A DNA stretch of 37,335 bases from a virus. The position numbers and the translations under genes are program-made. Below the pieces are notes generated by a model. It did not search any database. It saw only the letters and a program-made list of their open reading frames with translations, and was not told where the DNA came from. The DNA lies in the IMG/VR virus record IMGVR_UViG_3300007770_001204, positions 1 through 37,335 of that record. One strand, given 5' to 3'. The stretch's first letter is position 1. Each line of letters begins with the position of its first letter. Positions 2,774-21,415 of the stretch are shown here, piece after piece.

Positions 2774-3659
2774 AAAGATAAAATTACTACTTTTAACAGC
2801 TTTAATAGTGCTCGGTTGCCAGCCCGATTATGGTATGCAGTACGAGGTGATAGAAGAGATCCAGCCAACTGAGGTAGTTGTAGATTCGTTCGTACAACCA
2901 AGCCCTCCGACCAAATTAGATGTATTGATTGTGCTTGATACTTCGGGTTCAATGAACGATAATTTTCAACAAGTAAGCACAGGAGTGGAGTTGTTGCGCG
3001 GAGATATCGAAGCCCTAACACTTGATTATAAAATTGGCTTTATAAACTCAGGATTGGTCAGTCCGTATTTTGCTGGTCCTTATGACTATAATTCGGATTC
3101 TATTGATTTTTTGTTGGCCCCTTATATATTGGGCGCTGATTGGTACGAAAGAGCGTTCCAGACAATGCATGGATTCGTCTCAAGCACGCCTGAAGGCATC
3201 GCATTCTTTCGAGATGATGCAGACAAATTAATTATTTTTGTTTCTGATGAAGACGAGCAAGGGGCCATCCCAACAAATACTTTTCATGATTGGCTTGTAG
3301 ACAAGTTTAAAGGAGTGCAACATGACGTAGTGGCCATTGTGCAAGTTGAAGATGGTGAATGCGCAAGCACTTGGCAATATGATGTAGGTCAGAAATTTAT
3401 TGATTTAGTAGCTTATTATGGAAAAGTGGGAATTGACATTTGCAGCGATTGGGAAGCATGGTTGGCTGATAGTACATTTTTAGTAGGTGAAATTAATTAT
3501 ATTAACCTTACCCAAACTCCGCTACCAGATAGCCTTGTGGTCTATAGAAATGGGTTAGAAACAGAATTGTGGTATTATTTACCGAGTACTAATACTATAT
3601 ATCTCGACTTTGTGCCAGATCCAGGCGAACTTATTGAAGTAGGATATGTTGTTTTATAA
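2763..3659 (+). CDS. Lipoprotein with von Willebrand factor A domain
   Basis: 298 residues from ATG 2763. Residues 1-19 are a textbook lipoprotein signal: basic n-region (KKIK), hydrophobic core and lipobox V-L-G-C with Cys19. A VWA domain follows, with strand LDVLIVLDTSGSM carrying the MIDAS D59-x-S-x-S motif and a later FVSDEDEQG strand. VWA domains bind protein ligands through a metal ion. A longer start at ATG 2709 is in frame, but it would put 18 unrelated residues before the signal peptide. The product should be anchored to a membrane facing outward. It may alter the host surface, for example by blocking superinfection, but that is inference. Confidence 0.82.
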   Translation: MTIKKIKLLLLTALIVLGCQPDYGMQYEVIEEIQPTEVVVDSFVQPSPPTKLDVLIVLDTSGSMNDNFQQVSTGVELLRGDIEALTLDYKIGFINSGLVSPYFAGPYDYNSDSIDFLLAPYILGADWYERAFQTMHGFVSSTPEGIAFFRDDADKLIIFVSDEDEQGAIPTNTFHDWLVDKFKGVQHDVVAIVQVEDGECASTWQYDVGQKFIDLVAYYGKVGIDICSDWEAWLADSTFLVGEINYINLTQTPLPDSLVVYRNGLETELWYYLPSTNTIYLDFVPDPGELIEVGYVVL

Positions 3660-4801: not shown

Positions 4802-4877
4802 TGGGGTGTAGTTCAATCGGCAGAACGCGTGGCTGTTAACCACGAAGTTGCAGGTTCGAGTCCTGCTGCCCCAGCCA
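4802..4877 (+). tRNA. tRNA-Asn (anticodon GTT)
   Basis: A complete cloverleaf: acceptor TGGGGTG (4802-4808) with TGCCCCA (4867-4873), including two G-T wobbles; D arm GTTC/GAAC; anticodon stem CGTGG/CCACG around CTGTTAA, anticodon GTT; T arm GCAGG/CCTGC with loop TTCGAGT. The discriminator is G and CCA is encoded (4875-4877). It lies between two coding genes in one unit. Phage tRNAs usually supply codons used more by the phage than by its host. Confidence 0.95.
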
Positions 4878-5257: not shown

Positions 5258-5731
5258 ATGTCGTTTGTTCAAAAATTAAAAAAATTAAAGGTGGACCCCA
5301 CTACCATGGTTACACTTTCATATGTGGATGGAGTAGATGTATTCGTTCACAATGAAACTGAAGTAGAAACAGCGCTAACAGAAACAAATGTTGTAGAAGA
5401 GTTTTGCGAACTGGTGGCCACACCGGGCCTACATGTAACCACTATGTATGGTGCACCTATTTTAGAAGAATTGCGTGCTTCTTCCTTGCTGGAAGAGTAC
5501 GAAAGAGGCACTCATGCGTTTGCTGAATATTTAACGGAAGTCGTAAATGATAATTTTTATGAATTTGATTTTATTGATACGAATATTCAGAAATTTGATC
5601 ACAAGCGTGGCTTTTGTGAGCTACGTGCCGAGGTTAAAGTACCCGCAGGAGAACTTATTGATTCCAGCGCTTTCGTGAATTCATGGACTGTTTCTGTGCC
5701 GACAGAAACTGGTGTCCTAACTCTCGATTAA
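5258..5731 (+). CDS. Acidic phage protein of unknown function
   Basis: 157 residues, ATG 5258 with AAAGGAG just upstream. It starts with a short basic helix (VQKLKKLKV) and continues as an acidic alpha/beta protein with no Cys cluster, signal or membrane segment. I recognise no family. It is followed by the structured intergenic segment at 5735-5836. Confidence 0.75.
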   Translation: MSFVQKLKKLKVDPTTMVTLSYVDGVDVFVHNETEVETALTETNVVEEFCELVATPGLHVTTMYGAPILEELRASSLLEEYERGTHAFAEYLTEVVNDNFYEFDFIDTNIQKFDHKRGFCELRAEVKVPAGELIDSSAFVNSWTVSVPTETGVLTLD

Positions 5732-5734
5732 AGC

Positions 5735-5836
5735 GCGTCCGCTGTATCGTCGGGTAAATAATAACGATACGTGGCTGCCGAACGTTACGCAGGCAGGGGT
5801 TTACGGTTATCCTAGGACGCTAAAAACCGTTTACTC
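5735..5836 (+). ncRNA. Candidate structured RNA / cis-regulatory element (three-way junction with alternative pseudoknots)
   Basis: The 116-base gap between two genes can fold as a closed three-way junction. P1 pairs 5735-5740 with 5815-5820 (GCGTCC/GGACGC). P2 pairs 5744-5750 with 5764-5770 (GTATCGT/ACGATAC, 13-base loop). P3 pairs 5775-5779 with 5792-5796 (CTGCC/GGCAG). The P2 loop (GGGTAAAT, 5752-5759) can pair either with GTTTAC in the junction (5799-5804) or with TTTACTC at 5830-5836, just before the 5848 start. A further stem, 5803-5808 with 5825-5830, competes with both. The downstream gene lacks a visible ribosome site. This looks like a riboswitch-style layout, but no known family is recognised. 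Confidence 0.5.
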
Positions 5837-5847
5837 CCTATAATATC

Positions 5848-6063
5848 ATGAAACACAGAATTGATGTCCTATGTAATAATTATTTTGTGGGAGAAAGCGT
5901 TCTTCATCGACAAACTCATTTAACAGGGGTTATCATAGAGATGTATCCGTTAGACAAAGCAAAAATTTTATGGGAAAACGGACAAGAAGAATGGTTAAGA
6001 ATTTATCGAGGCAAAGGATATAACGAAGGGGCTATTGAGAATGTAGCCAAGATACTTAAATGA
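5848..6063 (+). CDS. Small SH3-like protein downstream of the candidate RNA element
   Basis: 71 residues from ATG 5848. The segment ESVLHRQTHLTGVIIEMYP...AKILWENGQEEWLRI has the strand pattern of a small SH3/Tudor-like barrel, similar in style to 2271 and 2500. No Shine-Dalgarno site precedes it; the expected position is CTCCCTATA, which the alternative RNA pairing partly covers. It overlaps the next gene by 4 bases (ATGA). Function unknown. Confidence 0.65.
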   Translation: MKHRIDVLCNNYFVGESVLHRQTHLTGVIIEMYPLDKAKILWENGQEEWLRIYRGKGYNEGAIENVAKILK

Positions 6064-17865: not shown

Positions 17866-19266
17866 ATGAATATTTTAATTCCAATGGCCGGCGCCGGCTC
17901 TAGATTTAAAGAGGTAGGATATAGCCTACCGAAGCCATTAATTGATGTAAGTGGCAAACCTATGATTCAACGTGTAGTTGAAAATATGGGTATCAAAGGA
18001 AAATACATCTTTGTAGTACGACAGGAACATTGTGATAAATATAATGTTCATCTTTTTCTTAAGAAGGTCGTACCTACTTGTGAGATTATTATTACCGAAG
18101 GTCTCACCGAAGGACAAGCCTGTAGCGCTTTGTTAGCGACAGACCTTATTGATAGCGCAGAGCCGCTATTAATCGTAAATTCGGATAATTATTTTATTTG
18201 GGATACCGACAATTTCCTCCATAGCGTGCAAGACCCCGATGTCAAGGGAATGATCTTTACTTTCAAAGATCCAGAAAAGAGCCCTCACTGGAGTTACGCG
18301 CGCGTCGATAATAACAACAATGTACTGGAAGTGGCCGAGAAGGAAGCTATTTCAGATAATGCGCTAGCTGGTGCATTTTATTGGCGCCAAGGAAGCGATT
18401 TTGTTAAATATACTCAAGCCATGATCGATCAAGATCTGCGTGTTAACAATGAGTTTTATATTGCTCCAGTGTTCAATCAAGCCATCAAAGATAACCATCA
18501 AATTAAAAATTACACCATTCACGATATGAAATCAATGGGGACACCCACAGAACTAGACTCTTTTCTAAATTGGGTCGAAACCAAAAAATCATCTTTACAA
18601 CTGGATGATTTTATGCTAAACTATAACAAATATATAAAGGAAAGAAAAATGTTAAACAATCGCAAATTTCAATCGGCCCTCGAAGACTTACGAACGGGAA
18701 AGCCGATTATTTTGGTAGACGAATATGATAGAGAAAACGAAGGAGATATTGTTATCGCCGCGGAGGTATGCAATGAAGAAAACTTAGTCTTTACTATGAA
18801 CAAGGCTCGTGGGCTAATGTGTTTACCCTGCGATGGAAGCATTTTAGATCGCCTAGAAATTCCTCCCATGGTCGCTACCAACACTGATAAAAATGAAACT
18901 CCTTTCACCGTGTCTATAGATGCTCGCGATGGGACCACCACCGGTATGTCGGTACAAGATCGTTTGAGCACCATCCGGGTCCTTCTAGATCCTGATTCAA
19001 CTCCGGACGAACTTACACGCCCGGGCCACCTCTTTCCTTTGCGCGCGAGACCGGAGCTTTTAAAAGTACGCCGCGGCCACACTGAAGGTTCTATTGAGCT
19101 TTGTAAGCTAGCTGGCCTACAGCCAATAGCGATGATCTGTGAGATTATGAACGATGATGGCACCATGAAAAAGGGCGGTGATTTAGATAAATTTGCAGTG
19201 GAACATGGATTGAGCATTATCTCCATTGAGGAAGTATATGAAGCAGCATATAACGAGAGCTTATAA
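17866..19266 (+). CDS. Fusion: sugar-phosphate nucleotidyltransferase + 3,4-dihydroxy-2-butanone-4-phosphate synthase (RibB)
   Basis: 466 residues in one unbroken frame. Residues 1 to about 240 are an NTP-transferase domain: ILIPMAGAGSRF, PKPLIDVSGKPMI, EGQACSALLA, IVNSDNYF and the final MGTPTELDSFL. It closely resembles the separate enzyme at 22743. After a Lys-rich linker (about 241-261), residues 262-466 are a complete RibB: DEYDRENEGD acidic loop, GLMCLPC, TTTGMSVQDR, RPGHLFPL and GHTEGSIELCKLAG. RibB turns ribulose 5-phosphate into DHBP plus formate for riboflavin. ATG 18649 at the junction has AAGGA seven bases upstream, so free RibB could also be made. RibB is normally alone or fused to RibA; I know of no established fusion of this kind. 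Confidence 0.88.
   Translation: MNILIPMAGAGSRFKEVGYSLPKPLIDVSGKPMIQRVVENMGIKGKYIFVVRQEHCDKYNVHLFLKKVVPTCEIIITEGLTEGQACSALLATDLIDSAEPLLIVNSDNYFIWDTDNFLHSVQDPDVKGMIFTFKDPEKSPHWSYARVDNNNNVLEVAEKEAISDNALAGAFYWRQGSDFVKYTQAMIDQDLRVNNEFYIAPVFNQAIKDNHQIKNYTIHDMKSMGTPTELDSFLNWVETKKSSLQLDDFMLNYNKYIKERKMLNNRKFQSALEDLRTGKPIILVDEYDRENEGDIVIAAEVCNEENLVFTMNKARGLMCLPCDGSILDRLEIPPMVATNTDKNETPFTVSIDARDGTTTGMSVQDRLSTIRVLLDPDSTPDELTRPGHLFPLRARPELLKVRRGHTEGSIELCKLAGLQPIAMICEIMNDDGTMKKGGDLDKFAVEHGLSIISIEEVYEAAYNESL
18636..18651 (+). promoter_or_regulatory. Internal ribosome binding site and ATG at the RibB junction
   Basis: AAAGGA (18636-18641) stands 7 bases before an in-frame ATG (18649-18651) that begins the RibB domain exactly where stand-alone RibB proteins start. 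The site is better than those of several genuine genes in this window. It would yield a 205-residue RibB in addition to the 466-residue fusion. Confidence 0.6.
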
Positions 19267-20207: not shown

Positions 20208-20573
20208 ATGTTAAAGATTTGTGTAGACCTAGATGGAACTATATGCGAAAATACGCGCCCTGGTGTAACTTATGCGGATGTTAAGCCGCTTCCCGGCGCC
20301 GTCGATACACTCGAAGAATTAAAGCAGCGTGGATATTACATTGTAATTTTCACAGCTAGAAATATGCGTACCTGCAATAATAATATCGGACGCGTGGTGG
20401 CTCGGCAGGGAAAGTTAATTTTTGATTGGTTAGAAAGATATGGAATTCCATATGACGAAGTAAGGTTTGGAAAGCCGCATGTAGATTACTTTATTGATGA
20501 TAAAGGAATCAAGTTTACCAATTGGAATGATATTAAAAAACAATTATTAGAAGCAGAACAGGAGGCAAAGTAA
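20208..20573 (+). CDS. HAD-superfamily phosphatase (capsule type)
   Basis: 121 residues. Motif I is VDLDGTICE (D7, D9), motif II FTARN, and a late KPHVDYFIDDKG provides the acidic motif IV. The small size with no large cap matches the HAD hydrolases often found beside nucleotidyltransferases in capsule clusters. It likely removes phosphate from a sugar or polyol phosphate. It starts one base after the kinase stop and ends in TAATG shared with the transaldolase-like gene. Confidence 0.82.
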   Translation: MLKICVDLDGTICENTRPGVTYADVKPLPGAVDTLEELKQRGYYIVIFTARNMRTCNNNIGRVVARQGKLIFDWLERYGIPYDEVRFGKPHVDYFIDDKGIKFTNWNDIKKQLLEAEQEAK

Positions 20574-21415
20574 TGTTTGATTTTTTCTTTGATACAGCGG
20601 ATGACCAATATATTTTAAATGTATGGGACAAAGCTCATAAGCACTTAGATGCTAAAAATATTCGAGGGATCACAACGAATCCCAACGCGTTTAAAAAAGT
20701 AGATTTATTTAAACTTCGAGAATGGGAAGCCAAGCTCCCCGTCTTGTGTTCATTGGTCTCTGACTTGCGTGGTGATGCCGAAGGGGTGGTATATGTACAG
20801 GCACCAGTTTCTACAATGACCCCCGAACAAGTATATGCCTATGTAAAACACATAAGTCAATTTAATGATGGCCAAACAAAGATCGGCCTTAAGATCCCGC
20901 CCTTTAGACCGATCCTGGAAATGGTAGACGATCTAAACCAATATGCGGAAACGAATGTAACTGGTCTGGCCGATTGCTCGACCGCTCTGTCTTGTCTTTC
21001 CTATAAGGTAAAATATATCAGCCTCATCCCGGGCCGCATGGAAGAGCAAGGTCTTGATGCGAAGGCTCACGTCCTGTTTACACGGCGTAGAAAAAACGAA
21101 GGGAATGATGGCGCGGGAGAAATTATTGCGGGCTCTATGAGGACGCTGGAGGGCTTAGAGTGGGTATGTAGCCATGGCACCGTGCCTACAATTGGAACGC
21201 GCGTCTGGGATCAAATTGTGGCAGATGATGAAACCTTACAAAGCGTGGCAGCTTATCAGTATGGTACTATTGGATGCGATCATTTAAAGTTCTCTCCACT
21301 TATTAGCGAGACCAACACACAATTATCAATTGACTTCTTTGCGCAAATGGATGAATGTGGGAAACAGGCACATGCCGACTTCATGTACGATCACATCGAA
21401 GATTGGGGAAAATAA
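20573..21415 (+). CDS. Transaldolase / fructose-6-phosphate aldolase-like enzyme
   Basis: 280 residues beginning in TAATG. FFFDTADDQYI (D7) and IRGITTNPNAFKKV match the TalC start. IGLKIPPF gives the Schiff-base lysine K107. NVTGLADCSTALSCL, YISLIPGRMEEQGLDA and GSMRTLEGLEWVCSHGTVPTIGTRVWDQI follow the family order. It is longer than typical TalC (about 215-220), with additions around 155-200 and at the C-terminus. These enzymes exchange three-carbon units in the pentose phosphate pathway; talC is known from cyanophages. In this cluster it could adjust pentose/heptose phosphates needed by RibB or a sugar-nucleotide route. Confidence 0.82.
   Translation: MFDFFFDTADDQYILNVWDKAHKHLDAKNIRGITTNPNAFKKVDLFKLREWEAKLPVLCSLVSDLRGDAEGVVYVQAPVSTMTPEQVYAYVKHISQFNDGQTKIGLKIPPFRPILEMVDDLNQYAETNVTGLADCSTALSCLSYKVKYISLIPGRMEEQGLDAKAHVLFTRRRKNEGNDGAGEIIAGSMRTLEGLEWVCSHGTVPTIGTRVWDQIVADDETLQSVAAYQYGTIGCDHLKFSPLISETNTQLSIDFFAQMDECGKQAHADFMYDHIEDWGK

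Follow-up and report, generated by a model that had tools for sequence, protein, structure and literature searches.

A conserved RNA with a pseudoknot, found beside tRNA genes in uncultured viruses

Background

The 3'ETS-leuZ RNA of E. coli is a short small RNA formed from a tRNA spacer, located 3' of the tRNA. In phage T4, rnaC and rnaD are about 120 to 140 nt long and are annotated as stable RNAs, with their function unstated (AF158101). Structured RNAs of marine phages and metagenomes include manA (RF01745), for which a pseudoknot was suggested, and wcaG (RF01761); both lie in likely 5' untranslated regions (UTRs) of metabolic genes (PMC2864571). The L17 downstream element (RF01708), which is also structured, follows a gene (PMC2864571).

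The RNA family described here, about 95 nt in length, is previously uncatalogued, having no match in Rfam 15 or in phage records. This agrees with an initial sequence-only reading, which could assign the RNA to no known class. Across the whole window (all 37,335 nucleotides analysed, from IMG/VR record IMGVR_UViG_3300007770_001204), only tRNA exceeded the curated threshold of Rfam 15, and at E ≤ 10 positions 5700-5880 gave three chance eukaryotic matches only. A scan including manA and wcaG, which the sequence-only reading had proposed as a check, produced no covariance match to the window RNA, and four relatives matched tRNA and tmRNA only. Searches (blastn) of 50,697 phage records with three family members gave no match. 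Neither did a search for the RNA in 200 Pseudomonadota genomes, run with strict filters and without a positive control. A pattern scan of a genome collection returned 119 loci, and among the matches listed these were chance-like and lay in coding DNA. No description of the family was found in open-licence papers.

A structured RNA downstream of gene X

The RNA is contained in a gap (5732-5847) between the stop of a gene here called gene X (5731) and an ORF starting at 5848. The features of the locus are as follows.

4802-4877, + strand: tRNA-Asn(GTT), upstream, called by ARAGORN and Rfam
5258-5731, + strand: gene X, encoding a protein of 157 amino acids, the usual upstream neighbour of the RNA
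5732-5833, + strand: structured RNA (conserved core 5739-5830), supported by sequence conservation relative to gene X and by covariance-model match
5848-6063, + strand: downstream ORF of 71 amino acids, not conserved and no constant partner of the RNA

Between the window and relative L002, the RNA is 96% identical, as against 46% at third codon positions of gene X; for L003 the values are 88% and 59%. In these three sequences the RNA is conserved far beyond the synonymous sites of the gene that adjoins it. Viral contigs with a relative of gene X retain nearly the same gap sequence despite a drifted gene and a different next gene. Readthrough of the gene X stop codon into a coding extension was rejected, as the frame meets a stop at 5759-5761, and a coding role for the RNA was rejected because indels among relatives are not in threes. 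Single-sequence folding of the window RNA was no better than that of shuffles (z -0.40 and -0.24); the single-sequence case is therefore not above chance and comparison decides.

The gene X protein belongs to no Pfam or PHROG family, had no match at E ≤ 0.001 in a fold search of PDB and BFVD, and has no relatives in phage records. The 71-amino-acid ORF is absent in L002 and L003 and had no relative in viral contigs; neither it nor the downstream 261-amino-acid ORF has a Pfam family. Elsewhere in the window, inspection by eye suggested a phage sugar-metabolism block that includes a nucleotidyltransferase with a RibB-like domain fused to it (17866-19266) and a transaldolase-like protein (20573-21415).

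Relatives of the RNA

Relatives are present in many IMG/VR contigs. Pattern scans added further members. As these scans had fixed part of the sequence in advance, another set was gathered via gene X alone. The RNA was carried nearby by 55 of the 78 loci found only in this way (covariance model; weakest 29.8 bits). The two sets share some contigs and are thus not fully independent. The comparison set comprised 51 distinct RNAs, and covariation statistics were calculated on 44 distinct rows drawn from loci found through gene X and not by RNA pattern. There was one strong covariance-model match per contig, even in contigs of 190-205 kb, and the window RNA, itself part of the training set, scored 103.6 bits. 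The family is spread among uncultured tailed phages, apparently mostly marine.

Fold of the RNA

The fold shown by the aligned relatives combines two hairpins, P2 and P4, with an H-type pseudoknot consisting of PK1 and P3 and with a conserved linker, RGGUUU. Its elements in the window, together with a pairing found only in the window's clade (P1), are given below.

5735-5820, + strand: clade-specific P1, pairing 5735-5740 (GCGUCC) with 5815-5820 (GGACGC) in the P4 loop
5744-5770, + strand: hairpin P2, stem 5744-5750/5764-5770 (GUAUCGU/ACGAUAC), A/U-rich loop, with covariation
5770-5784, + strand: pseudoknot PK1, 5770-5772 (CGU; optionally from 5769) with 5782-5784 (ACG; optionally to 5785), with covariation
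5775-5796, + strand: hairpin P3, stem 5775-5779/5792-5796 (CUGCC/GGCAG), with covariation
5797-5802, + strand: conserved linker GGGUUU, read as RGGUUU in most relatives and nearly invariant in two alignments (A2 and A5)
5803-5830, + strand: hairpin P4, stem 5803-5808/5825-5830, CCUNG in a conserved loop, with covariation

In the 44 rows, whose alignment was fitted to nested P2, P3 and P4 and so favours those stems while leaving PK1 outside the model, 96.1% of cells across the whole fold were paired, with both-sided changes in 15 of 19 pairs compared with 8.7 in shuffles. The covariation score was 0.417, compared with 0.171 in shuffles and at most 0.142 in slid controls. P2 was paired in 99.2% of cells and had both-sided changes in all six counted pairs, its sequence varying freely (UAUCGU, UUCUGC, CACCGU); the 18 G-U cells in this stem point to an RNA and not a DNA palindrome. 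For P3 the values were 99.1% and three of five pairs (CUGCC/GGCAG, CCGCC/GGCGG, UUGCC/GGCAA, UCGCC/GGCGA and GCACC/GGUGC all occur), and for P4 99.5% and four of five, with stem swaps such as CGGUU/AACCG and CGACUU/AAGUCG, among others. An extended P2 (CCGC/GUGG) was rejected since its covariation was not above shuffles.

PK1 joins the P2/P3 junction to the P3 loop. Its column pair 35-50 is G-C in 25 rows and C-G in 18, with a different combination in the one remaining row. This column pair ranks first in a structure-blind mutual-information screen of alignment columns. With register shifts allowed, 43 of the 44 rows make at least three consecutive pairs, a total reached by 0 of 1000 shuffles.

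The sequence-only reading had proposed a pseudoknot-forming RNA in which P1, P2 and P3 close a three-way junction. All the complementarities it described are present, and P2 and P3 withstood the covariation check on homologous gaps that it had called for; closure by P1 as a general feature did not. P1 is kept in the window, L002, L003, L007 and L012 with one compensatory change (in L003), was not found in 18 other sequences tested, and in the window's clade crosses P4 by pairing with its loop. That the RNA forms a pseudoknot was borne out through PK1 (5770-5772/5782-5784), which had been overlooked, as had P4 (5803-5808/5825-5830). A junction-closing stem between the 5' flank and the linker was also considered and rejected, because its pairing energy did not surpass that obtained with permuted partners (p 0.38).

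Genomic context

A tRNA gene begins 3-9 nt past P4 in 33 of the 51 RNAs, always on the same strand (Asn-GTT in 21, Thr-TGT in 11 and Gly-GCC in 1). Upstream of the RNA is usually gene X, itself preceded by tRNA-Asn(GTT) in many relatives as in the window. The RNA sits in a same-strand phage RNA gene cluster, typically in the order tRNA-Asn, gene X, RNA and tRNA-Asn, -Thr or -Gly. The next feature in close relatives is a sulfotransferase-like gene (identified by eye) or phoH, and elsewhere also other ORFs.

The mutually exclusive pairings of the P2 loop noted in the sequence-only reading, 5754-5758/5800-5804 and 5752-5758/5830-5836 (the latter beside the start codon), led it to propose a translational riboswitch for the downstream gene. 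Both complementarities exist in the window; outside close relatives neither is conserved. There is no constant link to a downstream coding gene or pathway: the feature that follows differs between genomes, and a tRNA gene, as in the majority of these RNAs, has no start codon to mask. A lack of a Shine-Dalgarno site, also part of the original claim, is real for the ORF at 5848 but is not distinctive, as 16 of the 35 gene starts inspected in the window, this one included, have none. A riboswitch is thus contradicted by genomic context and we regard it as highly improbable.

Genes for tmRNA occur near the RNA in many loci. That of L181 (3230-3575) passes Rfam RF00023; those of L178, L183, L257, L264, L266, L283, L306 and others are ARAGORN calls, and some of the tmRNAs so called have doubled stops after the tag.

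Some tRNAs that follow the RNA are called as Asn(GTT) yet are 92-97 nt long, their body being Leu-like and their variable arm long (L266, 3177-3272; L258, 3072-3167; also L264, L270, L278, L285 and L304). By eye, these are class-II-like tRNAs bearing an Asn anticodon, and that of L266 keeps U-A as its first pair and a G ahead of CCA. In L266 (3007-3069), a Cys-rich ORF of about 20 amino acids (MEKCECCGC.APC.C.CCCK type) with a good Shine-Dalgarno site is located in the interval from gene X to the RNA, and such ORFs are also present in L270, L278, L279, L285, L296, L304, L306 and L309 (approximately 2980-3075). In L190, the 5' flank AGUGGCGAA (1703-1711) is complementary to UUCGCCACU (1808-1816), which runs across the 5' end of the tRNA-Thr located downstream; the complementarity is similar in L177, L179 and L208, all of one clade.

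Possible roles

The usual place of the RNA before a virus-encoded tRNA gene makes a stand-alone viral RNA tool, and not a switch for the next gene, the most likely interpretation. Varied neighbours on both sides, one strong copy per contig and the close spacing to tRNA genes all favour a new family of tRNA-linked phage noncoding RNAs that would be co-transcribed, cut free and act in trans, a reading to which we give about even confidence. The RNA would be transcribed together with the neighbouring genes and then cut free, with RNase P probably making its 3' end by cleaving at the 5' end of the tRNA, 3-9 nt past P4. RNase P cannot account for all the 3' ends, because roughly one third of the members have no tRNA directly behind them, and in the window the RNA is kept although no tRNA follows. 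Where a U-run exists behind P4, termination there might provide the 3' end instead. The product would be pseudoknotted, with a hairpin protecting its 3' end and a short tail that is often U-rich; it may work in trans as a decoy, guide or protein-binding RNA and would not control the next gene.

In most genomes the RNA lies close to gene X, as would also be expected of a 3'-UTR element, and a cis-acting 3'-UTR or processing element is the next best reading, one that we consider possible but rather doubtful. P4 and the pseudoknot would either guard the gene X message against 3' exonucleases or set RNase cleavage before the tRNA. Indeed, the gene X stop lies 0-15 nt ahead of the RNA core in many genomes, and the tRNA spacing described above would suit such an element. 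In L254, L256, L260 and L261, a lone P4-like hairpin comes after gene X (just after approximately 2970) and precedes tRNA-Asn, as if P2, PK1 and P3 were lost or not yet gained; this arrangement is in line with a cis role and suggests that P4 may act independently. However, the RNA also occurs behind another gene or a tRNA (L017, L187, L194 and L196) and about 850 nt past gene X in L264, and a pseudoknot with conserved loops would be superfluous for a pure stability element.

A U-rich stretch (at least 5 U in 8 nt) follows P4 in 33 of the 51 RNAs, and many of these lie immediately in front of a tRNA; the window RNA has none. P2, PK1 and P3 could thus act as a sensor, with P4 and the U-run as a conditional terminator ahead of phage tRNA genes. 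Such an attenuator is unlikely, however, since the U-run that would be expected in all members of an intrinsic terminator or attenuator family is missing even from tRNA-adjacent copies (L312, L258, L281 and L194), and some copies are not before a tRNA at all. P4 loops are long and conserved, and no conserved antiterminator was seen, the linker being unable to pair with the P4 3' strand in RNAs of the L257/L262/L281 type.

If the RNA is indeed trans-acting, its tie to tRNA and tmRNA genes tentatively suggests a job in translation takeover or in protection of phage tRNAs, though on balance we doubt so specific an assignment. Were it correct, the family would represent a new class, and phages would have a third kind of RNA in their translation kit alongside tRNA and tmRNA. 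A counter-defence RNA mimic, such as a decoy that imitates an antitoxin RNA with a pseudoknot, is an improbable alternative role for a compact H-type pseudoknot carried by a phage. Phage PhiTE offers a precedent, as it is reported to escape ToxIN through RNA-based mimicry (PMC3475682). Type III (ToxI-like) antitoxins are recognized by tandem pseudoknot repeats beside a toxin gene; here, each contig has a single strong copy of the RNA, and no toxin gene was seen.

Comparison with known systems

The family resembles manA and wcaG in being structured and in its marine and phage habitat. It differs in having no Rfam match even at E 10 and in preceding tRNA, phoH, sulfotransferase-like or unrelated ORFs, whereas manA and wcaG are in likely 5' UTRs of metabolic genes. 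With the L17 downstream element it shares a position after a gene, but the taxa are different and, again, Rfam gave no match. Like 3'ETS-leuZ, it would be released from a shared transcript when the tRNA is processed; unlike that RNA, the family RNA is 5' of the tRNA and has a conserved fold with a pseudoknot.

The closest setting is that of T4 rnaC and rnaD (species 1 and 2; AF158101, 70908-71171), which are also small phage RNAs in a tRNA cluster. These come after the last tRNA of their cluster, whereas the family RNA precedes a tRNA. Their sequence also differs: the covariance model had no match at E ≤ 1 on the T4 region (L210). From the shared setting and the lack of a model match, the family is placed among phage tRNA-cluster small RNAs, within no named family; it is missing from current catalogues and is ready for Rfam. 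The small stable RNAs of the T4 tRNA cluster are annotated without function. The present family offers a fold that covariation establishes, that occurs in many viruses and that is fixed beside tRNA genes, which opens its function to tests with mutants that break or restore the structure.
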